NCBI GenBank assembly: GCA_001595385.3
Contig: LVEI03000001.1
Coordinates: 897,501-961,500 of the forward strand
Reading direction: 5' to 3'
Length of the DNA stretch: 64,000 bases
DNA from: Deltaproteobacteria bacterium GWC2_55_46
Lineage (GTDB): Bacteria; Desulfobacterota; GWC2-55-46
Below the pieces are notes generated by a model. The model was not told the DNA's origin, did not search any database, and was given only the letters and a program-made list of their open reading frames with translations. Shown here in pieces: positions 2,742 through 42,774 of the stretch. How positions within the stretch are numbered: position 1 is the stretch's first letter; every line of letters begins with the position of its first letter. The translations under genes and the position numbers were made by a program.

Positions 2742-3356
2742 TCAGACGCCGGATCCTCCCCTTTGCGTCCCCTCATGCGCCCCTGTCAACACGACTCGCT
2801 TCTCCGTTACGATAGCCGAGACCGTTACGTCGTGGGGCTCAAGGGGGATTTTTGTTTTAAGAACCTGAAACTCGTAAGCCAGCGCCACTATGGAGCACTT
2901 TGCGGAACCGAGTGCCGCGTCATAGTAGCCCTTGCCGAAACCGATCCTGCCTCCGCGCTCGTCAAATGCGACTCCCGGCACCACTATGAGGTCAAACGCC
3001 TCCGCCCCGACTGCCGCGGTCCCATCCAGCGGCTCGCGGACCTCGTAGGCGCCTGGCTCCATCTCATCGAGCGAGCGGACCCTGAAGAACTTAAGGGCTC
3101 GCCCGTTGCCTGCCGCCACCCTCGGATAGTAGACCTCTTTGCCGGAGCCGATGGCGGCCCTGAAGACCTCGTCGGTGAGGACTTCATTCCCAAAGCTGTA
3201 GTACAGGGCCAGCTTCGCCGAATCCCTGAAAAAATGAGAGTCTATGAGCCTTTGCTGGACCTTGAGGCTCAAGGCATAGACATCCTCGAACGAAAGTTCC
3301 CTTCTCGTCTCGAGAAGTTCGCCTCTCAGGGACTCTTTTTTGGCAAACCTCATCAT
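2742..3356 (-). CDS. fau: 5-formyltetrahydrofolate cyclo-ligase
   Basis: A 204-residue enzyme converting 5-formyl-THF to 5,10-methenyl-THF with ATP, in cytoplasmic one-carbon metabolism. Diagnostic features are the ATP-site start KKESLRGELL, the VPGVAFDERGGRIGFGKGYYD block (substrate and Mg-ATP site) and EPHDVTVSAIVTE near the end. Two adjacent ATGs (3356 and 3353) are possible starts; AAAGG lies just upstream. The gene follows 6S RNA and zapA in the same direction, the conserved zapA-ssrS-ygfA order known from gammaproteobacteria and others, which supports the 6S call. The C-terminal ~15 residues are Gly/Thr-rich and not conserved. Confidence 0.93.
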   Translation of the reverse strand: MMRFAKKESLRGELLETRRELSFEDVYALSLKVQQRLIDSHFFRDSAKLALYYSFGNEVLTDEVFRAAIGSGKEVYYPRVAAGNGRALKFFRVRSLDEMEPGAYEVREPLDGTAAVGAEAFDLIVVPGVAFDERGGRIGFGKGYYDAALGSAKCSIVALAYEFQVLKTKIPLEPHDVTVSAIVTEKRVVLTGAHEGTQRGGSGV

Positions 3357-3549
3357 TTACCTTTGGAAGGAAGGGGTGGACAGAGCTTGGGTGAGACTGA
3401 AGAAATGACAGAAAAGCGTGCGTCCCGGCTGGCGCGGGGTCCTGGGTACTCTATTTCCTCACATCAATCGGTTTTATCATTGGGAAACACGTTATTTAAA
3501 AACGAGGTATCTGAATCGGCCTTTAACCAGGTTATCTGCCCCAGCGCTT

Positions 3550-26372: not shown

Positions 26373-27936
26373 AATTGCCGGCCTCTACTATGCGCCCGCC
26401 CTCTACCGTCAGGATAAAGAGCTTTTTCCGGGCCTCCCTCTTGCTGTTGAAAGAGATATCGCCTGTGGCGCCCCTGAACTCCTTCGTGGACCTGAGCCTT
26501 TCCTTTACCCCGTCCCTGTCGGCATCCACACTTGCCGCGTTCAATAGCATCCTCGCCGCGTCAAAGGCCTGGGCCGAGAGGGTCCCCGGGGCGTGGCCGA
26601 AGACCGAGCCGTAGCTTCTGGAGAACCCTTCCGCGCTTTCGCCCGCCGCGAAAAACCCGTCAACGAATACAGCCCCCTCGACGTTCTTTCCGGCCAGATC
26701 CACGAGCCTCGGAGAGTTCCATACGTTCGGCCCCATGAGCCTTACACCCTTTACATTATAATAATCGAGATAGGGGGCTATGAGGGCCACCGGCTCATGG
26801 GAATCCGGTATGAACAGGGCGTCGACCTTGATCGTGGGGTTGAATTCCCTTATCTTCCGCCTCCCCTCCATCCGCTCATTCACCTGAACGCCAAAGAGCC
26901 TCTTTATGGTCTCGCTGAAATCCATCGTGCCCTGTGGATAGGAGGCCTTACGGACGACAACCCCGCCTTTTGCCTTGACCGCGGCCTCAAAATGCCTGGC
27001 GAGGTCGACCCCATACGCGCTCTGCGGGTGGAGTATGGCGAACCGCCTGGCCGCCATAGGGCCAGCGGCGTAATCGGCAAGCGCCCTGGCCTGGTCCTCT
27101 GAGGTAAGAAAATTACGGAAGACGTAATCGCCCGCGTCGGTTATGCCGTCCTTCTGAGAGAGGGTGATAAGGGGGAGCTTCTGCGTCTGCGCGTGCCTGG
27201 CGGCCTCTGCGGCGGTAGAGCTCATAAGCGGCCCGATGGCTCCAACGACCCTTTTATTTGAGGCGAGCTCCGCCACCGCGCTCCATACAGATGATGCGTC
27301 CGTTATATCTTTTACTATTACATCCACCTCGGCTCCCCCGGTTCCCTGAGAGTCGCCGAAGACACCGGCCGCCATAAGGACCCCTGACAGGGCGTCCTCG
27401 CCAAAGGAGGCGTAGTCGCCCTTGAGCGGCAGGAGCACCCCTATGGCCGGAAGGTCTGCCTGGGGCTTCAAGCCGTAAGCGGCCTTTTCCACTTCCTTCA
27501 GGAACCTCGCCGAGCGCGCGCGCATCTGAAGGCTGGCGCCCTTATCGCGGCTTATCGCCTCGAAGGCAGCCCTGGCCTCATCTATCCTGCCTGTTCTGTA
27601 GTCGATGAGGGCAAGCTCGTAGGCGGCGTCGTTCCTGAACCTGCTCTGCGGGAAGTTCGCCAGGAGCATATGGTAAGCATCTGCGGCCCTCTGAAGCTCC
27701 TTCTTATCGCTGTATATGCGCCCCAGCCTCAAAAGGGCCTCGTCGATATACTCCGCTGACGGGTTGCCATCGACATAGGCCGCGAGCTTCTTTACGGTCT
27801 CTGCCTGGGCGCCCTTCAGGTCGAGCTCCTCAAAGATGGTCATGAGGTCGCCTCCCTTGCCGGGCCACGCGGCATGGGCCGTTGGGCCGGAGAGCGCGGC
27901 AAAGAGGACGAACAGTACTGTTATCGCCTTTATCAT
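26371..27936 (-). CDS. Periplasmic LpoA/LivK-like binding protein with N-terminal TPR region
   Basis: A 521-residue exported protein. The signal peptide is residues 1-22 (hydrophobic core VLFVLFAAL, cleavage after AHA). Residues 30-155 are helical TPR-like repeats (EYIDEALLRLGRIYSDKKELQRAADAY). From about 165 a type I periplasmic-binding fold runs to the end (IGVLLPLKGDYASFGEDALSGVLMAA, VVGAIGPLMSS, PLITLSQKD, RFAILHPQSAYG). The TPR-plus-Peripla_BP_6 architecture is that of LpoA-type activators of penicillin-binding proteins and of YtfQ/LivK-like orphan receptors. Its start overlaps the dnaJ stop by 4 bp, which ties it to the heat-shock operon. Confidence 0.82.
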   Translation of the reverse strand: MIKAITVLFVLFAALSGPTAHAAWPGKGGDLMTIFEELDLKGAQAETVKKLAAYVDGNPSAEYIDEALLRLGRIYSDKKELQRAADAYHMLLANFPQSRFRNDAAYELALIDYRTGRIDEARAAFEAISRDKGASLQMRARSARFLKEVEKAAYGLKPQADLPAIGVLLPLKGDYASFGEDALSGVLMAAGVFGDSQGTGGAEVDVIVKDITDASSVWSAVAELASNKRVVGAIGPLMSSTAAEAARHAQTQKLPLITLSQKDGITDAGDYVFRNFLTSEDQARALADYAAGPMAARRFAILHPQSAYGVDLARHFEAAVKAKGGVVVRKASYPQGTMDFSETIKRLFGVQVNERMEGRRKIREFNPTIKVDALFIPDSHEPVALIAPYLDYYNVKGVRLMGPNVWNSPRLVDLAGKNVEGAVFVDGFFAAGESAEGFSRSYGSVFGHAPGTLSAQAFDAARMLLNAASVDADRDGVKERLRSTKEFRGATGDISFNSKREARKKLFILTVEGGRIVEAGN

Positions 27937-29048
27937 TCGAAGATTTCCTTGACCTTTGAAAAGAAGTTCTTCCTTAGAGGTGTTGTCTCCTCGCCGCTTA
28001 TCTCGGCGAACTCCTGCAAAAGCTCCTTCTGCCTTTTGTTGAGCTTCGTCGGGGTCTCAAGCGTTATGACAACCCGCTCGTCCCCGCGCTTGCCTGTGTG
28101 GACCGAGGCTATGCCCTTGCCGGGCATCCTGAAGACCTTGCCGGACTGAGTGCCGGCTGGTATCTTGAGCTTCGCGGGCCCCTCGATGGTGGGCACCTCT
28201 ATCTCGGAGCCGAGGGCCGCCTGGGCGAAACTTACGGGCACCTCGCAGATAACGTCGTCGTTCTCGCGTTTGAATATCGGGTGGGCGGCTACCGTTATGA
28301 AGATATAGAGGTCTCCCGACGGGCCGTTACGTTCGCCGTACTCGCCCTCCCCTGAAAGCCTCAACCTTGAGCCGGTATCGATCCCGGCGGGGATCTTGAC
28401 GGTGAGCGGGGCAACCGACCTGGTCTTGCCAGCCCCCCTGCACTCCGTGCAGGGGTCCTTTATGGTGACCCCTTTGCCCTGGCAGCCGGGGCAGGTCCTG
28501 GCTATGCTGAAAAACCCCTGCTGGAACCTGACCTGGCCGGCGCCTCCGCAGGTGGTACATGTGGCCGGGCTGGTGCCTGGCTTCGCCCCGCTGCCCCCGC
28601 ATGTATTACAGGCGACCGTCCTCGGCACCCTGATGGTCTTTTCCGTGCCGAAGGCCGCCTCATCAAACGTTATATCGAGGTCGAACCGGAGATCAGAGCC
28701 GCGCTCCGGGGCGGGCCTCCTCCTGCCTCCTCCGCCGCCGAAGAAATCAGAGAAAACATCCGTGAAGATACCCTGGAAGTCCGAGCCGAAGCCCCCGTAC
28801 TCGCCGCCGACACCTGCGCCGGAGCCCGCGTAGCCGAAGCGGTCATAGTTGGCGCGCTTGCCCGGGTCTTTAAGCGTCTCATATGCCTCGTTTATGCGCT
28901 TGAACTTCTCCTCTTTTTCCTTGTCGCCGGCGTGCTTGTCGGGATGGTACTGGTGGGCGAGCTTCCGGAAAGCCCTCTTTATATCGTCTTCGGTTGCGTC
29001 CCTCGCGACCCCGAGTATCTTATAAAAGTCCTTCTCTTCGCGGTCCAT
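27933..29048 (-). CDS. dnaJ: Chaperone protein DnaJ
   Basis: A 371-residue type I J-protein. The J domain (residues 5-70) has the HPD motif in HQYHPDKHAG; a Gly/Phe region follows (GYAGSGAGVGGEYGGFGSDF); four CxxCxGxG zinc repeats lie at ~150-210 (CNTCGGSG, CTTCGGAG, CPGCQGKG, CTECRGAG), then the C-terminal substrate-binding domain. It stimulates DnaK ATPase and delivers unfolded proteins. Lies 6 bp after grpE. The usual dnaK between grpE and dnaJ is absent. Confidence 0.97.
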   Translation of the reverse strand: MDREEKDFYKILGVARDATEDDIKRAFRKLAHQYHPDKHAGDKEKEEKFKRINEAYETLKDPGKRANYDRFGYAGSGAGVGGEYGGFGSDFQGIFTDVFSDFFGGGGGRRRPAPERGSDLRFDLDITFDEAAFGTEKTIRVPRTVACNTCGGSGAKPGTSPATCTTCGGAGQVRFQQGFFSIARTCPGCQGKGVTIKDPCTECRGAGKTRSVAPLTVKIPAGIDTGSRLRLSGEGEYGERNGPSGDLYIFITVAAHPIFKRENDDVICEVPVSFAQAALGSEIEVPTIEGPAKLKIPAGTQSGKVFRMPGKGIASVHTGKRGDERVVITLETPTKLNKRQKELLQEFAEISGEETTPLRKNFFSKVKEIFE

Positions 29049-29054
29049 TATCTA

Positions 29055-29615
29055 TCAGTGCACCTCTGGCTTTTTAGCCACAGCCACCATCGCGGGCCTC
29101 AGAAGCCTTCCTTTCAGGTAATAGCCCTTCTGGAACTCCTTGACGACCGTCCCCGGCTCGGCCTCAGCTGTCTCTTCTTCCGTTATGGCATGGTGTATCG
29201 CCGGGTCGAACCTCTCGCCCGCGGCCTTGATCTCCTGGAGGCCGAACTTCTGGAGCGCGCCGAACATCTGGTCGATGGTGAGCTTGACTCCCTTTCTGAG
29301 GGATTCGAGGTTCTCCTCCCCGTTCGCGTGCTGAAGGGCCCTCTCGAAGTTGTCCACTATCGGGAGTACATCTTCTATAAGGCTCTCGTTGGCGAAGCTT
29401 ATCGCCTCCGCCTTCTCCTTCTCCGTCCTTTTCCTGTAATTATCCAGGTCGGCGAGGGCGCGGAGATACTTGTTATTGTTCTCAGAGGCCTCCCTCGACT
29501 TGGCTTCGAGCTGTTCGGTCAAGCGCCGTATCTCCTCTTCCGGGGTCTCGGCTATCTGCGCCCCGGCCTCGTTTTCCTGCATCTCTTCTTTTTCCATGCC
29601 TTCGTCCTTCTCCAT
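29055..29615 (-). CDS. grpE: Nucleotide exchange factor GrpE
   Basis: A 186-residue GrpE: an acidic N-terminus, a long coiled-coil helix (about 25-90, EEEIRRLTEQLEAKSREASE), the conserved ALADLDNYRKRTEKEK, DNFERAL, and the beta wing with GERFDPAIHHAI and VVKEFQKGYYLKGRLLRPAMVAVAK. It releases ADP from DnaK. An alternative start at the seventh codon (Met) is possible. It follows hrcA after a 145-bp gap with an inverted repeat. Confidence 0.96.
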   Translation of the reverse strand: MEKDEGMEKEEMQENEAGAQIAETPEEEIRRLTEQLEAKSREASENNNKYLRALADLDNYRKRTEKEKAEAISFANESLIEDVLPIVDNFERALQHANGEENLESLRKGVKLTIDQMFGALQKFGLQEIKAAGERFDPAIHHAITEEETAEAEPGTVVKEFQKGYYLKGRLLRPAMVAVAKKPEVH

Positions 29616-29667
29616 ATGCGAATTCCCCGATAATCATTTTTTAAGGCGCCAGGCGCATAAAGTCATT

Positions 29668-29698
29668 GCACGGGCCTCAATAAAATTTAGGGCCGTGC
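29668..29698. promoter_or_regulatory. Inverted repeat between hrcA and grpE
   Basis: GCACGGGCCT and AGGGCCGTGC, 11 bp apart, match in nine of ten positions. Arm and spacer lengths resemble CIRCE (9-N9-9) but the sequence does not. It lies 53 bp upstream of grpE. It may be an operator or an RNA hairpin (it has no T-tract). Confidence 0.45.
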
Positions 29699-29760
29699 GC
29701 CCGGAAAATCAACCCCTGGCACAGCGCCCCTTAAAAAAAAGTCTTTTCTGGATTTCCAGG

Positions 29761-30786
29761 CTACAGGACCTTGCTCAAAAGCCCGGAGGCATAATCCACA
29801 AGCGGGATGATCCTCGAATAATCCATCCGGACTGGCCCGGCAACCCCGAGTGTGCCGAGCGTTTCATTCCTGCCGTAAGGCGAGGTGACGAAGCTCAAGC
29901 CCTCAAAGCCCTCTACGGCGCTCTCAGAGCCGAGGTATATGCGGATACCGCTCTCCTCGAGGCTCTTGTCGAGTATCCTCACAAGGAGGCTCTTCTCCTC
30001 GAAGGCGGCGAATATCCTCTTCATCATCTCGATATCGCCCCTGAATTCGGGCTGCTCGATGATGTTGACCTTGCCCTCCACCACCACATCGCTCTCTTCC
30101 GGCCCCAGGTCGTTCTCAAGCGCCTGGGCCCCGAGCCTCAATGCCTTGGCGAGGAGCTCGTCGTAGAGGTTCTTGTCCCTGTGCATCTCCTCCACTATCC
30201 TGCCCCTCAGCTCCCTGATGGTCAGCCCCTCGGCTATGGAATTGAGGTAATTCGATATGCTCTCCAGCTCGAGCTTCTCGATGCCGGCCATGCGCACGAC
30301 CTTGCTCTGCACAAGGTCGTTCCTGGAGACCAGGAGCACTATAAGGCCTGAAGAGTCTATGGGAAGCAGGTTTATATGCCTGATGACGAAGCTCTCGCGC
30401 CTGGGTATGAACATCAACCCGGCGCAATTAGTTATGGTCGAGAGCGCCTTGGCCGTGTCTGAAAGGATATCCTCTATGGCGGCGGTCTTCTCGCAGCCCT
30501 TCTTAAGGAGGTCCTTGTCCCCCTGCCCGGGCTCTTGAAACTCCCGCATGCTGTCTATGTAGAACCTGAAGCTCTTCTCGGTCGGGACCCGGCCCGCCGA
30601 TGTATGTGGCTGATGGAGAAAACCGAGGCTTTCAAGCTCGGCCATGACGTTACGTATGGTGGCCGGGCTCACCCCGAGGGAATACTTCATGGCTATGGCC
30701 TTTGAGCTTACCGGCTCAGCGGTCCTTATATAGTCCTGTACTATAGCCTTGAGTATATTGCTTGTACGTTCGGAAAAGCCGTTCAT
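29761..30786 (-). CDS. hrcA: Heat-inducible transcription repressor HrcA
   Basis: A 341-residue repressor of heat-shock genes that normally binds CIRCE and needs GroEL for folding. The N-terminal winged helix (RTSNILKAIVQDYIRTAEPVSSKAI, GVSPATIRNVMAELE, GFLHQPHTSAGRVPTE) is typical, followed by the GAF-like dimerisation domain. No CIRCE (TTAGCACTC-N9-GAGTGCTAA) is visible upstream of this operon in the window. A sigma-70 promoter lies at 30840-30869. Confidence 0.95.
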   Translation of the reverse strand: MNGFSERTSNILKAIVQDYIRTAEPVSSKAIAMKYSLGVSPATIRNVMAELESLGFLHQPHTSAGRVPTEKSFRFYIDSMREFQEPGQGDKDLLKKGCEKTAAIEDILSDTAKALSTITNCAGLMFIPRRESFVIRHINLLPIDSSGLIVLLVSRNDLVQSKVVRMAGIEKLELESISNYLNSIAEGLTIRELRGRIVEEMHRDKNLYDELLAKALRLGAQALENDLGPEESDVVVEGKVNIIEQPEFRGDIEMMKRIFAAFEEKSLLVRILDKSLEESGIRIYLGSESAVEGFEGLSFVTSPYGRNETLGTLGVAGPVRMDYSRIIPLVDYASGLLSKVL

Positions 30787-35845: not shown

Positions 35846-36277
35846 CTAACTGGCGATCTTCTCGACCAGGATGCCCAAGAACCTGTTGACTACGTTCTGT
35901 CTGGGGAGAAACGATATCATGGGCTTTCTGCGAAGACCCAGGCTCTTCATCTCGCTCAGCAGGGCGAAATGGTCGCTGTCGAACTTGAGCCCCTTCCTGA
36001 AGGCCCTCACGGCCACGGACTTCTGGCCGTTAAGCAAAAATATCCTGCCAAGGTTCAGGTATATCTCTGGGTTATAAAACTCCTTTTCAGCCGCCATGAG
36101 ACAGAGCGATATGGCCTTGTCAAAGTTACCTTCAACGCTTGCCAGGCTCACGGCATAATATGACGTTGCCGTGGGGTGCTGGGTAAAGCAGAGGTCCTGG
36201 TCAAAGACCTTTACCGCCTCGTCAAACCTCCCCGCCCGCGCAAGCCCGATACCTCTTTCGATCACTTCATTGCTCAT
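35846..36277 (-). CDS. TPR-repeat protein of unknown function
   Basis: A 143-residue soluble protein of three helix pairs like tetratricopeptide repeats: ERGIGLARAGRFDEAVKVFD, YAVSLASVEGNFDKAISLCL and YLNLGRIFLLNGQKSVAVRAF. The C-terminal stretch (KSLGLRRKPMISFLPRQNVVNRFLG) with two Arg/Lys patches and a short amphipathic end is not repeat. Partner unknown. AGGAGGCTATCT precedes the ATG. A Crp-like palindrome lies 120 bp upstream, matching that in front of the secreted protein gene, so the two may be co-regulated. Confidence 0.8.
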   Translation of the reverse strand: MSNEVIERGIGLARAGRFDEAVKVFDQDLCFTQHPTATSYYAVSLASVEGNFDKAISLCLMAAEKEFYNPEIYLNLGRIFLLNGQKSVAVRAFRKGLKFDSDHFALLSEMKSLGLRRKPMISFLPRQNVVNRFLGILVEKIAS

Positions 36278-36463: not shown

Positions 36464-39115
36464 TCACTGTAGCTTTAGCCCTGTCTCTACGAGCTTTTCC
36501 TCAGGGCCGTACTTTACAGCCAACTCTCCGGAAGAGCTTAAGCAGAAGGTCAGGCGCACTTCATCAGGCACATTTTCCCCGAAGGACAATGTCACCGGCT
36601 TGAGCCCTGTAAGGCCCGCCTCAGCGGCCTCCTTTATCTCCTGCTTGAGGAACTCGACCCCTTGCTCAGAGACCCACCTCCTTACGAGCGTGCTTTCAGG
36701 TATCTCGAAGAGCTCTATCGTGACCTCCTTCTGGAGCCCCAGCTTCCTGGCGGGCTTAACGCTGAAGCTCTTCTCCAGGGGCAGCTGCTCCCCCTTTTCA
36801 AGCACGATAGAGTACGAGTGGGTCACGTCCTTGCCATGCGGCGAGTACCTGAGCGCATAGGCAACCGCCAGGTGCCTGTCGGTTACCTCCCTTGTCCCGT
36901 AGGAGGCGGCGCCCATACAGACGGCCGTAAGCGGGCTGTGGTCGTATATCAGATTCCTTCCCCTCAGCTCCGGGAATATGTCGCCGATCTTCTCCTTAAA
37001 GGACGGTATCTGGGAAGAGCCGCCAGTCAAGAGCACGGCGTCTATCATCTCTTTCCTGAGCCCCACCTTCTCGGCCCTCTTGAGGATACCGACAACGGCC
37101 CTGTCTACGGAGCTATAAAATTCGCGCCCGTCAAGGACCTCCTCAAACTCGTCCCTCGTCATCCTGCACGCCTCCCGCCCGTTCCAGATGAACGGGGCAT
37201 CCCTTCTCTCGGAAAGCCTTATCTTCACCTCTTCGGCGGCGAGCATAAGATTGTACTGGGACGCGCCCTCTATCCCGGCCTTCTTGCCGAGGTACTCCGA
37301 GAGCCAGAGGTCTATGTCATGGCCGCCGAGCATAAGAGCCCTCTCGGGCTTCGCCACGATATGGACCTCGTTCATGTTGAGCCTCACGAGCATCGTATTG
37401 AAGGTGCTGCCCCCGAAGTCCACGACCATTATGAGCCTGTCCTTCTCATCGACCACCTGGTATCCGACAGCGGCGGCCAGCGGCTCTTCTATAAGCTCTA
37501 CCCTCGCACCCTTCATGACCTTCCCGGCTATCTCCCTTAGCGCAAAGCTGTAGTCCTGGTAGCCGACCGGCACGGTTATGTATATGACGTCGGCTGCGCT
37601 CCTGGGCAGGATGGAGAACCAGGGAGCGCCCGCGGAGGACTTCTTCAACTGCTGATAGAGGATCCTTATGAACCTCTCCATGTGCTCCCTGCCCCGCGGG
37701 TTACCTTCAAGGAGCATCTGCTTGATATTGGATATCGGGTCGCCGCCCGCGGCCTCCGCGCCTATGTTGTTGGTATCCGCGCTCAGAAGCGTCGGCACAA
37801 GTGAGATGTTGTCGTATTGTCTGGCCGCGGGGCCCAGGTTGATGAATTCCGGCGCCTCGTCCTTTTTCTTCCTCAACACAACGGTATTCGTGGCGCCCAA
37901 GTCTATCGAGACGCACTCGGATGACGCAAGGTCCCTCCTGCTGATGACGGCCCCGCCGGATTCAGGATGAAGTTCAGCTATGAATACAGGCCTTTCGACC
38001 TCCGCCCCGTGGAATGTGCTCTTCAATGTCTCCAGCCTGTCGACGACCTTCTTTACAGAATCGCGGAGCCCCCTGGGCTGGACCCAGACGTGGGTGTAGG
38101 GCTTGAGAGTCTCTAAAAAACGGGTGTCGTTCAGGGCGGCGCCGAACTTCTCGATCTCCTTGCCCAGTGTCTTCGCGTACTTCTCCCGCGCGAACCTGTT
38201 CTTCTTCGAATCGGTTATGCCGTTGTCCTCAGCGGAAAGTATGTAATCGACCACGTCGAATACATCCACGTCCTCCATCCATTTCCTGACTGTAAAAAAG
38301 GCGAGCGAGCGCTCTAAGGTCTTCTGTATAAGGGAAAAGAACTCACGCGCCCTTGGCGCTATCTGGAAGAGCTCTATCAGGCAGTACTCCCTGGCGAACG
38401 GATCTACCATCTCAAGGGTGGCGTCGAAGGCGTCCTCCATAGCCTTTAGCTCAAGGCCCCTCCACTGCCCTGTCTTCGGCAGCTCCCCCGCTATGGAGAT
38501 GAGCGAGTACCTCCTGTAATACGGCTCGGCTATCGCGTGGGCGGCCGTTATCGCGAGCTCTATCGCCTCTTTATAGACCGGCTGGAAAGGCCCGTCCCTG
38601 GGCGCTATCCTCGCTACCCCAAGGAGCGTAAAGCTCGCGAAAAACGATATATCGCTCGCCTTGGGAAGCTCACTGGCTATCTTTTCCATGTTGGGCCTGG
38701 CAAAACGCGGGCTATCGGGCAGGCCGAGCGCGAGCCTCCACGCTCTCACCCTGAGGTCCAGAAATTCTTTCGTCCCGGGCAGCTCGTTTGCGAGCCTTGC
38801 CAGCTCGGTGACCCTGCGGTTGGTCTCATCGAGGGCATCCGCGGCTGCAAGGGCGGCTTCCATAGCCCTGATGTAGAGGCGCTGGAACGGTATAGTAAAG
38901 GGGATCTCTTTTACGAACTCGAGGAGGGCAAGCCTCCTGTCGGAGGGGTCCTCGATCCTGTCGAGGAGGTCAAAGGCGATCGTGAAAAGCTCTACAGCCT
39001 CCGCGGTTTTGGGAAGCTCCCTGCCGGCGCGGACTATGAGGCTCCGTATGCTCGAATTGTCCTGGGTATCTCTGGCGGTATCGATGTACCGCCTCGGGGC
39101 TTCGAGGTTGCTCAT
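36464..39115 (-). CDS. Giant Hsp70-like protein with N-terminal helical repeats
   Basis: An 883-residue protein. Residues 1-~290 are a helical repeat array of about seven ~40-residue units, each with an ELPKT/EIPFT/ELPGT/IAPRD-type turn (for example AGRELPKTAEA, ANELPGTKEF, AGELPKTGQW). From ~400 an Hsp70 ATPase follows: phosphate-1 SIDLGATNTVVL, EEPLAAAVGYQ, phosphate-2 VVDFGGSTFNT, adenosine motif LLTGGSSQIPSFKEKI. A ~110-residue beta domain like DnaK SBD-beta ends the protein (VTIELFEI, DEVRLTFCLSSSGELAV); the helical lid is absent. Last gene of the AAA/DUF1257/DUF2997/radical-SAM operon, overlapping the latter by 4 bp. Confidence 0.88.
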   Translation of the reverse strand: MSNLEAPRRYIDTARDTQDNSSIRSLIVRAGRELPKTAEAVELFTIAFDLLDRIEDPSDRRLALLEFVKEIPFTIPFQRLYIRAMEAALAAADALDETNRRVTELARLANELPGTKEFLDLRVRAWRLALGLPDSPRFARPNMEKIASELPKASDISFFASFTLLGVARIAPRDGPFQPVYKEAIELAITAAHAIAEPYYRRYSLISIAGELPKTGQWRGLELKAMEDAFDATLEMVDPFAREYCLIELFQIAPRAREFFSLIQKTLERSLAFFTVRKWMEDVDVFDVVDYILSAEDNGITDSKKNRFAREKYAKTLGKEIEKFGAALNDTRFLETLKPYTHVWVQPRGLRDSVKKVVDRLETLKSTFHGAEVERPVFIAELHPESGGAVISRRDLASSECVSIDLGATNTVVLRKKKDEAPEFINLGPAARQYDNISLVPTLLSADTNNIGAEAAGGDPISNIKQMLLEGNPRGREHMERFIRILYQQLKKSSAGAPWFSILPRSAADVIYITVPVGYQDYSFALREIAGKVMKGARVELIEEPLAAAVGYQVVDEKDRLIMVVDFGGSTFNTMLVRLNMNEVHIVAKPERALMLGGHDIDLWLSEYLGKKAGIEGASQYNLMLAAEEVKIRLSERRDAPFIWNGREACRMTRDEFEEVLDGREFYSSVDRAVVGILKRAEKVGLRKEMIDAVLLTGGSSQIPSFKEKIGDIFPELRGRNLIYDHSPLTAVCMGAASYGTREVTDRHLAVAYALRYSPHGKDVTHSYSIVLEKGEQLPLEKSFSVKPARKLGLQKEVTIELFEIPESTLVRRWVSEQGVEFLKQEIKEAAEAGLTGLKPVTLSFGENVPDEVRLTFCLSSSGELAVKYGPEEKLVETGLKLQ

Positions 39116-39687
39116 CTTATTTCCGGCCTGGCGGTTATGCGGCTGAACCCGGTCTCCCTCACCATCCCGTCGGCCCCTATGAAGACCTCTGACCTGCCCG
39201 GCATATAGAGGTCATGAAGGCTGTACCTCGGCGTGAGAAAATGGAAGCTCTGGTTCGTGGAGCCGCGGGGCAAAAGCGTAGCCTCCTGCCTGGTCTCATC
39301 ATAAGGCCCGTCTACGAGTACATCTATCGACGCGAGGCAGGCTCTCATCGCGGGGTCCGCTTCTATCTCTTCGATCTTGAAGCCGGTATAGACGAGGGTC
39401 GTGAGTCCGCGCGCCCTGGCTGATTCGAGCAGAGCCTTCAACCCCCTTGGTTGCGAAAACGGCTCTCCGCCGCTCACGGTAAGGCCTTCGATATCTATCG
39501 CAACGTATCTTTCAAGGATGTCTTCGGCAGGGGTGAGAACGCCAGCGTCAAAGGGGTGCGTGGCAGGGTTAAAGCACCCCTCGCAGCGCCTCTGGCAGCC
39601 CTGGAAGAAGACAACGACCCTTTTTCCCGGCCCGTTGACGCTTGAGCGCGGCAGCACCGCGTGTATGTTTATGAGCCCGCCGTCCAT
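39112..39687 (-). CDS. Radical SAM activase-like protein (NrdG-like)
   Basis: A 191-residue short radical SAM protein. The cluster motif is CQRRCEGC (Cys 31, 35, 38), followed by the SAM-binding GGEPF in LTVSGGEPFSQP and VLVDGPYDE. The size and layout are those of glycyl-radical activases such as NrdG, or of the NrdG-like 4Fe-4S single-cluster family. No glycyl radical enzyme is encoded nearby. The start overlaps nothing, 15 bp after the DUF2997 gene; the stop overlaps the Hsp70-like start (ATGA). Context suggests it modifies, or supplies electrons to, another member of this operon. Confidence 0.88.
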   Translation of the reverse strand: MDGGLINIHAVLPRSSVNGPGKRVVVFFQGCQRRCEGCFNPATHPFDAGVLTPAEDILERYVAIDIEGLTVSGGEPFSQPRGLKALLESARARGLTTLVYTGFKIEEIEADPAMRACLASIDVLVDGPYDETRQEATLLPRGSTNQSFHFLTPRYSLHDLYMPGRSEVFIGADGMVRETGFSRITARPEIR

Positions 39688-39892: not shown

Positions 39893-40231
39893 TTACCCTT
39901 TGAGGACTATCTGTATCTCGCCGGCCGTCTCGGTTTCGCTCGCTATCTCGAAATCCAGCGGCAGGTTGTCTTTTATCGATTCATAGGCGTATATCTGTTT
40001 GAGCCTGTTGGAGAAGGCGCCGACCACCCGGTTGTCCCCCGCCATCTGGTAGTTGCCTGTCTTCTCCTGCGACATGCTTATGATGTCCCCGTCCCTGTCG
40101 ACCTCGACCGTATCCTTCCGGACGTTTTCCACGAAGCCGGTTATCTCGCCGCGCTTCTTTAATTCCTCAAGGGCGCAGACAAGATATTTCTTGCTCGAAA
40201 GCTCTGTTTTTATGACGGTGTAGAAAGACAT
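39893..40231 (-). CDS. DUF1257 protein (Ycf35-like)
   Basis: A 112-residue protein with the family start MSFYTVIKTELSSKKYLVCALEELKK, close in pattern to plastid/cyanobacterial Ycf35 (MSHF-x-IKT...), then a beta-rich middle (VEVDRDGDIISMSQEKTGNYQ) and FSNRLKQIYAYESIKD. Function unknown. It lies 10 bp after the AAA protease and 4 bp before DUF2997, so the three are surely translated from one message. Confidence 0.85.
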   Translation of the reverse strand: MSFYTVIKTELSSKKYLVCALEELKKRGEITGFVENVRKDTVEVDRDGDIISMSQEKTGNYQMAGDNRVVGAFSNRLKQIYAYESIKDNLPLDFEIASETETAGEIQIVLKG

Positions 40232-40241
40232 CCTCTCTCCC

Positions 40242-42377
40242 TCACTGGACCGGGTTTTCCCTGAAGAAACGGTTGAGGCCTTCTCCGTTTATGAGCACTT
40301 CCCCTACGAGCTTCTCTACGAGGGCCATGACGACCTCTTTATTGTCAGAGACGACCTTGGCTGTGGCCTCCTTGGCCGAATCGAGTATCCTCTGGATGTC
40401 CTCCAATACGTCCCCGCCAGAGGTGAGGGCGTAGTCCTGGAGGACCATGAGGCTTTTGTTCCTCATTATCTCGCCGAAACCGTACTCGATGACCATCTTG
40501 CGGGCGATCCCGGTTGCCTGTATGAGGTCGTGAGAGGCCCCTACCGTCTTGGAGTCGTTCCCGATTATCTCGTCCTCCGCCACCATGCCGCCGAGTATGA
40601 CGCCTATCTCCTTTTCAAGGTCCCTCTTTGTGTAGGTGGTCCTTATGGCCTCGTCTACCGGGATGAAGGCGGCGTAAGACTTATAGTTGTCTACGCTTAC
40701 GAAGGCCGGGGTCTTGTTGAAGTAGAGCTTCATCATGACCGCGTGCCCGGCCTCGTGGATGGCTATGTTCCTCTTTTCCGTATCAGAGAGGGACTCGGCC
40801 CTCTGGAGGAAGAGCGACTTGGAGGCCGGCCTCGCCCTCTGGTGGCTCCATGCCCGGAGCTCCTCTATCTCCTCTTTCTTGAGTACCGAAAGGGGCGTTA
40901 TGTGCCTTATGGACTTAAGGAGGCTCTCCTGCGTTACGTCAAGCGAAAGGAGCCCCTCTATGACCTCTTCGATGTTCCTGCCGCCATGGTCCTCGTGGAG
41001 CTGGTTGAAGATGGTCACCACGGCGTCCTTTACCGCCTGCTCTATCTCGGCGCCTGTGAAGCCCTGGCTGTTGAGCGAAAGCTCCTTTACGTCGAGGCGC
41101 GAGAGGTTCTGGACCCTCCTTTCGAGGTGTATCCTGTATATCTCCTCGCGCTCCTCCTGGCTGGGGAGGTCGACGAAGAAGACCTCGTCGTAGCGCCCCT
41201 TCCTCCATAGCTCCGGCGGCAGGTTCTTGGGCTCGTTCGCGGTCGATATGACGAAGACCGGGTGCTCCTTCTCCTGAAGCCAGGTGATGAAGGTCCCGAA
41301 AACGCGGAGCTGGGTGCCCGAATCGCCCTGGTAGCCTCCGATGCCGCCGAAGGCCTTGTCTATTTCGTCTATCCAGAGTATACACGGGCTTACAGCCTCG
41401 GCAAGCTGTATGCACCTTCTTATGTTCTTCTCGGATTCTCCGACGGTGGAGCCGAACAGGCGCCCCACGTCGAGGCGCAGAAGCGGCAGGTTCCAGATGC
41501 CGGCAAGGGCCTTGCAGCAAAGGCTCTTTCCCGAACCTGGCACGCCTATCAAAAGGAGCCCTTTCGGGACATCGAGGCCGAGGGTGGATATCTTGTCGCG
41601 AGAGAGCCTGAAGACGTGCTCCCTCTCTACAAACCACTTCTTTATCTCGCTTAAGCCCCCGATATTCTCTATCGTCTCCCTGTGCGGGTAGTAATCCAGT
41701 ATCTTCTGTTTTTTGATGATCTGCTGCTTTTCGTCCTGTATATATGAGATGCAGTTCTCGTTAAGGAAGCCGTTATTGAGGCTTATCGCCTTCCTGATGA
41801 CGCGCCTTATATTATCCATGGAAAGGCCCTGGAGCGACTTGTAGAGGATAGACCTGGTGGAGGCGTGCCAGCTTGCCGGGATCAGATGTCCGTATGTCCT
41901 GGAGACCATGTCGGCAATCTCATCGTAGTCCGGAAGCGATAGCTCTAAAACTACTATGTCCTCTTCAAGTTCCGGGGGTATTTCGCTCAAGGTCGGAGAG
42001 ACGATGCAAACGGTATTGACGGTGTGGCGCTCGTCTATTATCGCCGGGAGGTCGCGGAAGCGCCTCAGGAACTCATGGGAATTGAAGTAGGAGGCTATGT
42101 CCTTCAAGAGAAAGAAATTGCTGACATTCTCGCCCTTGATTATCTTCTCCTCTATTACGGAGAGGATCTTCTCCCTGCCTATGGGCTCCCTTTTCTTCTT
42201 CTCGCCCCCGTACAGGCCCCTGGATACCGACCAGGACCAGAAACTGAGCTTCATGGAATCGCAAAGCGATTCCACAATCCTTTCCACCCTCCGCTCCTCA
42301 AAGGAGACGAGCCAGAGGATGGGGTACCTGGCCTCGATATGTATCCGTATCTCGTTCTCGAAGTCTCTGGCGTTCAT
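40242..42377 (-). CDS. Soluble AAA+ ATPase fused to an M41 (FtsH-type) zinc protease, Ycf46-like N-terminus
   Basis: A 711-residue protein without membrane segments. Residues 1-~235 match the Ycf46-type degenerate AAA domain (IHIEARYPILWLVSFEERRVERI). The active AAA module has Walker A GVPGSGKS (278-285), Walker B ILWIDEID (333-340), sensor-1 ISTANE and an Arg-finger region WRKGRYDE. From ~530 a peptidase M41 domain follows: HEAGH (541-545), LGGMVAEDEI and the third zinc ligand Asp617 in VGASHDLIQATGIARKM. All catalytic residues of FtsH are kept. First gene of the five-gene operon. AGGT lies before the ATG. Confidence 0.9.
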   Translation of the reverse strand: MNARDFENEIRIHIEARYPILWLVSFEERRVERIVESLCDSMKLSFWSWSVSRGLYGGEKKKREPIGREKILSVIEEKIIKGENVSNFFLLKDIASYFNSHEFLRRFRDLPAIIDERHTVNTVCIVSPTLSEIPPELEEDIVVLELSLPDYDEIADMVSRTYGHLIPASWHASTRSILYKSLQGLSMDNIRRVIRKAISLNNGFLNENCISYIQDEKQQIIKKQKILDYYPHRETIENIGGLSEIKKWFVEREHVFRLSRDKISTLGLDVPKGLLLIGVPGSGKSLCCKALAGIWNLPLLRLDVGRLFGSTVGESEKNIRRCIQLAEAVSPCILWIDEIDKAFGGIGGYQGDSGTQLRVFGTFITWLQEKEHPVFVISTANEPKNLPPELWRKGRYDEVFFVDLPSQEEREEIYRIHLERRVQNLSRLDVKELSLNSQGFTGAEIEQAVKDAVVTIFNQLHEDHGGRNIEEVIEGLLSLDVTQESLLKSIRHITPLSVLKKEEIEELRAWSHQRARPASKSLFLQRAESLSDTEKRNIAIHEAGHAVMMKLYFNKTPAFVSVDNYKSYAAFIPVDEAIRTTYTKRDLEKEIGVILGGMVAEDEIIGNDSKTVGASHDLIQATGIARKMVIEYGFGEIMRNKSLMVLQDYALTSGGDVLEDIQRILDSAKEATAKVVSDNKEVVMALVEKLVGEVLINGEGLNRFFRENPVQ

Positions 42378-42606: not shown

Positions 42607-42774
42607 TCAGGCGGCGGGCCTGCCCCTGCCAGCGATGAGAGAGACGACGAAGAGTATGATGAAGACCACGAAAAGGAGCTTCGCGATCCACGCGGCGGTC
42701 CCCGCTATCCCGGCGAAACCCAGCACGGCCGCGATTATGGCTATTATGAGGAATGTTATCGCCCATGAAAGCAT
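42607..42774 (-). CDS. DUF1328 (YtjA-family) small membrane protein
   Basis: A 55-residue protein with two hydrophobic helices: [20 protein letters not shown], a [11 protein letters not shown] turn, then [17 protein letters not shown] and a GRGRPAA end. This is the typical length and pattern of the DUF1328/YtjA family, stress-associated inner-membrane peptides. The start ATG is at 42772-42774 behind GGAGGGATACTT. A consensus promoter lies ~85 bp upstream and a terminator follows, so it is monocistronic. Confidence 0.9.

Follow-up and report, generated by a model that had tools for sequence, protein, structure and literature searches.

At the locus examined here, one gene (P0001) encodes a chain in which an AAA domain lacking a P-loop, an intact AAA motor, and an M41 zinc-protease domain follow one another (Table 1). 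It was analyzed within a stretch of 64,000 nucleotides (the window) from Deltaproteobacteria bacterium GWC2_55_46. The coordinates in the original prediction proved correct, and the strand, which had been left out, can now be added: the plus strand of 40242-42377 is interrupted by stops, and the open frame runs along the minus strand. The gene heads a five-gene operon, all on the same strand, separated by 4-15 bases except for one overlap of 4 bases, and the operon stands among housekeeping genes. Upstream, a hydrophobic 55-aa ORF (window 42607-42774, minus), presumably a DUF1328-like protein, is conserved; a perfect TTGACA-16-TATAAT is found at 42885-42858, and a conserved hairpin precedes the fusion gene. 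Rfam detected only 6S and a tRNA within the window, with nothing upstream of the operon. Past its other end lies a gene for a 143-aa TPR protein (window 35849-36277, minus), which was seen in three close relatives (L034-L036) and in none of the eight remaining fusion loci compared, some of which are cut short.

Table 1. Features of the fusion gene, its operon, and a second, soluble-looking AAA-M41 protein; positions are those of the window unless another record is named.
Feature	Position	Strand	Size, basis, or remark
Ycf46-M41 fusion gene P0001	42377–40242	minus	711 aa; first gene of operon
P-loop-less AAA (D1-like) domain, residues 1-222 of fusion	41712..42377	minus	AlphaFold2 model on p97 D1; absence of Walker A
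Active AAA motor, residues ~230-515 of fusion	40833..41690	minus	Pfam; alignment of 50 rows
M41 zinc-protease domain, residues 526-711 of fusion	40245..40802	minus	Pfam; PDB alignments; alignment; AlphaFold2 fold match
DUF1257 (Ycf35)-like protein	39893..40231	minus	112 aa; PF06868 below cut-off
DUF2997-like protein P0002	39703..39888	minus	61 aa; PF11211
NrdG-like radical-SAM / 4Fe-4S protein	39112..39687	minus	191 aa; Cx3Cx2C (C31, C35, C38)
Hsp70-like ATPase	36464..39115	minus	883 aa; Pfam, nucleotide-binding domain only, 513-739
Soluble-looking AAA-M41 protein	Rhizobium leguminosarum pRlX5, L190:3525-5549	minus	674 aa; unannotated record

The original prediction had read the product as a dead AAA domain, a canonical AAA module, and an intact M41 site combined in one chain, and Pfam searches, alignments, and an AlphaFold2 model all confirmed that combination. 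The Pfam AAA match covers residues 274-403 (E 2e-29), and the Peptidase_M41 match, above the Pfam cut-off, covers residues 530-701 (E 6e-23). The AlphaFold2 model is of moderate quality (mean pLDDT 76.7, pTM 0.55), and its superpositions on FtsH across the motor and protease together gave an rmsd of ~10-19 Å; the model thus does not fix how the domains are arranged relative to one another. In the same model, residues 2-222 align structurally with D1 of p97, an AAA domain (Z ~13, rmsd 3.6-3.9 over ~200 residues, 10% identity), and residues 2-516 superpose on D1-D2 of Cdc48/p97. A Walker A motif or P-loop in the N-terminal domain was found in 0 of 50 aligned rows, comprising 28 unfused homologs and 22 fusions (the window and 21 of 27 named loci; the remaining six were excluded because they are near-copies, have broken frames, or are cut). 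Together with the D1 fold match, this bears out the assignment of the N-terminal region as an inactive AAA domain. In the motor that follows, the Walker A Lys, the Walker B Asp and Glu, the sensor Asn, and both arginine-finger positions (K284, D337, E338, N381, R392, and R395) are invariant in all 50 rows, as befits the canonical module that had been proposed.

One part of the motor sets the fusions apart. Their pore loop 1 reads Thr-Val-Gly, with Thr311 present in all 22 fusions, whereas the 28 unfused rows carry Leu (23), Phe (3), Met (1), or Thr (1) at this position. A gap-free alignment to the genome's own FtsH places Thr311 at the position of the FtsH pore-loop Phe (Phe-Val-Gly), a residue important to FtsH. 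With Thr in place of the aromatic residue, processive threading by the fusion appears doubtful from sequence comparison; its expected clients would therefore be loosely folded or delivered by partners, and a strong general unfoldase would not be expected. Phe308, which is conserved and lies three residues before Thr311, might stand in for the aromatic residue.

The HEAGH motif of the protease domain occupies residues 541-545, and H541, E542, H545, and D617 are retained in all 22 aligned fusions, so the M41 site is intact as first described. In PDB alignments, D617 falls on the Asp that acts as the third zinc ligand in FtsH and YME1. For residues 526-711 of the model, the fold match is 2di4, the protease domain of FtsH (Z 18.6, 33% identity; rmsd 2.8 over 165 residues), and the M41 domain is ~13 residues shorter than that of FtsH after the third ligand. 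In seven pairwise comparisons, several with dS values near or at saturation, dN/dS was 0.06-0.19 for the M41 domain and 0.03-0.06 for the N-terminal domain; the motor gave 0.02-0.09 in the six calculable pairs, and M41 evolved faster than the motor in those six of seven. By these estimates, the M41 domain is under purifying selection, with looser constraint than in the rest of the fusion. A decayed protease was ruled out by the conservation of the catalytic residues and the dN/dS values. A search with the M41 domain alone gave matches in 284 of 297 sampled genomes of the phylum; after 12 fusions, the listed matches fell to E 7e-20 or weaker, nearly all of them in frames of ~600-680 aa, the size of FtsH (one exception, of 213 aa, sits at the start of a contig), and no close non-FtsH donor of the domain was found among them.

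FtsH, from which the M41 zinc protease is best known, is normally anchored in the membrane. No membrane segment was detected in the fusion by a hydropathy scan, as distinct from a dedicated transmembrane predictor: the 19-residue Kyte-Doolittle mean peaks at 1.27 (peaks of 1.17-1.33 across the 22 fusions), and an FtsH protein of the same genome reaches 2.45. The predicted lack of a transmembrane helix was thus upheld. FtsH is the best NCBIfam model for the fusion; on the FtsH equivalog TIGR01241, however, the protein scores 173 bits against a cut-off of 600, which rules out a plain FtsH. Two canonical FtsH genes are retained in the same genome, indicating that the fusion represents an added function. 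In one relative, an FtsH-like gene (625 aa, L043:5205-7079, plus) lies ~2.4 kb from the fusion gene.

The kinship of the rest of the chain lies elsewhere. Over residues ~6-520, the fusion aligns end to end, at ~40% identity, with unfused proteins of cyanobacteria, Planctomycetota, Sumerlaeota, and others, in agreement with the suggestion that its N-terminal region is related to Ycf46. We take Ycf46 to be the appropriate family name for these proteins and for residues 1-520 of the fusion; public records label them 'AAA family ATPase'. Both Ycf46 and Ycf35 are conserved proteins of cyanobacteria and of algal plastids, and the motor family is poorly understood. In P0001 numbering, 25 of the 28 unfused rows end at 519-543, and the later ends of the other three (617, 618, and 663) reflect stray terminal alignment. 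Judged by these alignments, the fusion consists of an entire Ycf46-type protein (residues 1-520) with an M41 domain joined to it.

The fusion alignment was used as a profile to search one genome from each species, and 587 stretches matched. Among the best 80, 27 loci (L068-L094) hold the fusion or its pieces at 71-92% identity, in genomes labeled as Deltaproteobacteria, Nitrospirae/Nitrospiria, Desulfuromonadales, or just 'bacterium', and no Ycf46-M41 fusion was found outside this lineage among those 80. Full-length orthologs with 69-94% identity in many independent assemblies rule out an assembly chimera. Of 48 genomes in its order, 39 carry the fusion, and in a sample of 297 genomes of the phylum, 66 gave a match at E <= 1e-30, of which 12 are the fusion at practically full length. 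In a tree of residues 1-520 (63 rows; a quick search with no bootstrap and no FtsH outgroup), a single branch separates the 22 fusions from 41 neighboring unfused proteins (SH-aLRT 100, stem 1.62). The fusion is thus real and old on the evidence of these sequences, with a single origin reflected in one supported clade. In two genomes (L084 and L085), the fusion occurs alongside a separate unfused homolog (35-36% identity); the two forms can therefore coexist. In the open-licence literature searched, no description of an M41 domain on a Ycf46-type motor with these partners was found; among the matches listed, papers mentioning both ycf46 and FtsH were plastid-genome papers and one cyanobacterial transcriptome, with nothing closer. 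Nor, among the sequences compared here, was the combination of an M41 domain with a Ycf46-type motor and this set of partners found elsewhere.

The operon partners, which the original prediction had missed, carry most of the functional information. Directly after the fusion gene comes a small protein whose 112-aa family most commonly matches PF06868 (7 of 12 members, all below the cut-off, best E 0.019); a PF06868 search of 21 related genomes gave only three weak matches (E 0.17-0.31), all on the 112-aa gene and none in the window's genome. Its model is well defined (pLDDT 86.7). The fold has no clear counterpart in the PDB: Foldseek found nothing at E <= 0.001, and the best match was VIA (Z 8.4 over 70 residues). 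The model was therefore not used to assign a function. The next family, of 61 aa, whose window member was absent from the original prediction's list, matches PF11211 in all 10 of its members (best E 5e-5), the window's member scoring 18.6 bits against a cut-off of 24.1. Profile searches of both small proteins against PDB sequences gave nothing credible. These assignments, weak alone, are strengthened by the neighbors of unfused Ycf46-type genes; these neighbors score above the Pfam cut-offs for DUF1257 and DUF2997. Within the same phylum, their DUF1257 matches reach E 1e-24 and 4e-28 and their DUF2997 matches E 3e-13 and 3e-15, one cyanobacterial and one planctomycete neighbor give similar scores, and PF06868 is found at the same place at E 1e-22 to 1e-28 overall.

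Pfam assigns the radical-SAM protein to Fer4_12 (E 5e-32) and Radical_SAM (E 7e-9), and its three motif cysteines are invariant in 11 of 11 sequences. The first 500 residues of the Hsp70-like protein gave no Pfam match. Of the 27 named fusion loci, 21 have all five genes, and the remaining six reach a contig end first; in one locus (L074) the radical-SAM gene is preceded by an additional 2.6 kb, and some loci have a split Hsp70-like frame. Among the 48 genomes of the order, 38 have both the fusion and the Hsp70-like partner, seven have neither, and three (61, 79, and 82% complete) have one alone (Fisher p = 4e-6, not corrected for relatedness). Elsewhere in the window, an hrcA-grpE-dnaJ cluster (27933-30786, minus; named by sequence reading) has no dnaK between grpE and dnaJ, and a full, standard DnaK-like gene is located at C1:1630585-1632372 of the genome.

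Partners of the same kinds accompany Ycf46-type genes that carry no protease. Near 20 unfused loci of the phylum, profile searches detected DUF1257-like proteins at 13, Hsp70-like proteins at 12, and radical-SAM proteins at three (E below 1e-10); no M41 domain was found nearby apart from one chance-level match (E 0.015). Unfused relatives at E <= 1e-40 also appear in 663 plasmid and 54 phage records, of which some are full-length relatives and others match the AAA part. Among the plasmid records, six loci were inspected, with DUF1257 at three, DUF2997 at four, a 4Fe-4S protein at three, and Hsp70 at one, the Calditerrivibrio locus having none of these; no annotated M41 was found at any of the six. 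On a Treponema plasmid in the L182-L187 set, the Ycf46-type gene is flanked by genes for a 4Fe-4S protein and for phage baseplate protein V. Of 61 M41 matches on plasmids, the 20 listed are mostly annotated as FtsH; of three that were fetched, two lack the Ycf46 N-domain and have strong hydrophobic segments in the N-terminal half, and the third is the Rhizobium protein of Table 1. With unfused relatives in other phyla keeping the same kinds of partners, the comparison indicates that a widespread module gained a protease once, in the fusion lineage. The earlier proposal that Ycf46 works with proteolysis thus stands for this lineage, in which the two are physically tied, in one clade, with a conserved M41 domain under purifying selection; it does not stand as a general claim, since the absence of M41 near the 20 unfused loci and six plasmid loci examined means that proteolysis cannot be assumed for Ycf46 at large. 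Published accounts describe a DUF2997-ycf35-ferredoxin cluster in cyanobacteria (PMC4284462), a presence of ycf35 and of ycf46 in red algal plastids that in each case tracks habitat (PMC5940233), and a stress-responsive operon containing ycf46 (slr0374), loss of which lowers the activity of the carbonic anhydrase EcaB (PMC7496141).

Taken together, the sequence and modeling evidence favors a reading of the fusion as probably a cytosolic ATP-dependent zinc protease, built by joining M41 to the C-terminus of a complete Ycf46-type ATPase. The chain would form a hexamer, in which the dead N-terminal AAA ring would take the place of the FtsH membrane anchor, holding the hexamer together and receiving clients. 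The motor would then pass clients down to the M41 ring, where they would be cut. The four operon partners (DUF1257-, DUF2997-, radical-SAM-, and Hsp70-like) could select, modify, or hold clients as adaptors, modifier, and holding chaperone. More tentatively, we offer the wider picture of one more architecture for ATP-dependent proteases of bacteria, a soluble, Cdc48-like double-ring protease with built-in M41, its own adaptors (Ycf35-like and DUF2997-like), a radical-SAM modifier, and an Hsp70. Such a system may show that the Ycf46/Ycf35 module handles clients belonging to a special protein class, possibly Fe-S or radical enzymes, and that in this lineage their handling ends in degradation. 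If the protease reading is correct, a second, inactive AAA ring can replace the membrane anchor of an M41 protease. The fusion makes protein degradation a testable idea for the role of Ycf46-type motors.

Several other explanations were weighed against this protease. Other Ycf46-type proteins are presumed to be remodeling chaperones, and the fusion could likewise be mainly a chaperone whose M41 ring makes limited cuts, for the maturation or release of one client, rather than carrying out full degradation. The invariant Thr of the pore loop, the ability of unfused homologs to work without an adjoining M41, and the maturation-type partners (radical-SAM and Hsp70-like) are all consistent with such a role; however, the whole M41 fold and every catalytic residue have been kept, and limited and full cleavage are not separable by sequence, and we regard this explanation as unlikely, if the most serious of the alternatives. 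That the M41 ring might be catalytically dead or structural, by analogy with the chloroplast FtsHi subunits, which have such an M41 domain, would fit its faster evolution relative to the motor. This is very improbable given HEAGH and Asp617 in every fusion and the low dN/dS of the domain.

The remaining alternatives concern where the gene came from and the company it keeps. A divergent FtsH that has lost its membrane anchor would share the AAA-M41 order, and FtsH provides both the best NCBIfam model and the best Foldseek matches. Nevertheless, the shortfall on the equivalog model, the missing pore aromatic, and the end-to-end alignment of residues 1-520 with cyanobacterial and planctomycete unfused proteins, compared with an FtsH alignment that begins only at residue ~225-235, make this origin barely credible. 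The plasmid and phage records of unfused relatives, some plasmid copies of which adjoin the same partners, raise the question of whether the operon is part of a mobile conflict or defense module. PADLOC, however, returned only domain-level matches, to IetA (AAA) and, weakly for two partners, to pVip and PDC-M61B, and the fused form is stable in its order and set among housekeeping genes; we therefore consider a defense role improbable.

The proposed cytosolic protease can be set beside four kinds of known system. Ycf46-type ATPases such as Synechocystis slr0374 share with it the succession of a dead and an active AAA domain and the same kinds of neighbors (DUF1257, DUF2997, a 4Fe-4S protein, and Hsp70); the members examined stop at residue ~520 or shortly beyond it and usually have Leu in the pore loop, whereas the fusion runs on into M41 and has Thr. 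FtsH, YME1, and AFG3L2 likewise place AAA before M41 and have HExxH and an Asp as the third ligand, but the fusion lacks their anchor and pore-loop aromatic, carries an extra dead AAA domain, and falls far below the equivalog cut-off. An engineered soluble YME1L is reported to use a hexameric coiled coil in place of the membrane anchor (PMC5095350). A natural case is the protein encoded on the R. leguminosarum plasmid pRlX5, which resembles the fusion in having AAA followed by M41, HEAGH, and no N-terminal hydrophobic anchor that could be found (its hydropathy peak, 1.72, lies within the M41 part), but whose N-terminal region has no similarity to the Ycf46 N-domain; an M41 protease without an FtsH-type membrane anchor is thus not unique to the fusion. 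On the same plasmid, a small second M41 gene (~2903-3528, plus), in a frame without AAA, lies tail to tail with the AAA-M41 gene. Finally, Cdc48/p97 offers a parallel in its D1-D2 double AAA architecture, from which the fusion differs in that its first AAA domain lacks a P-loop, the Cdc48 N domain is missing, and an M41 protease has been added.
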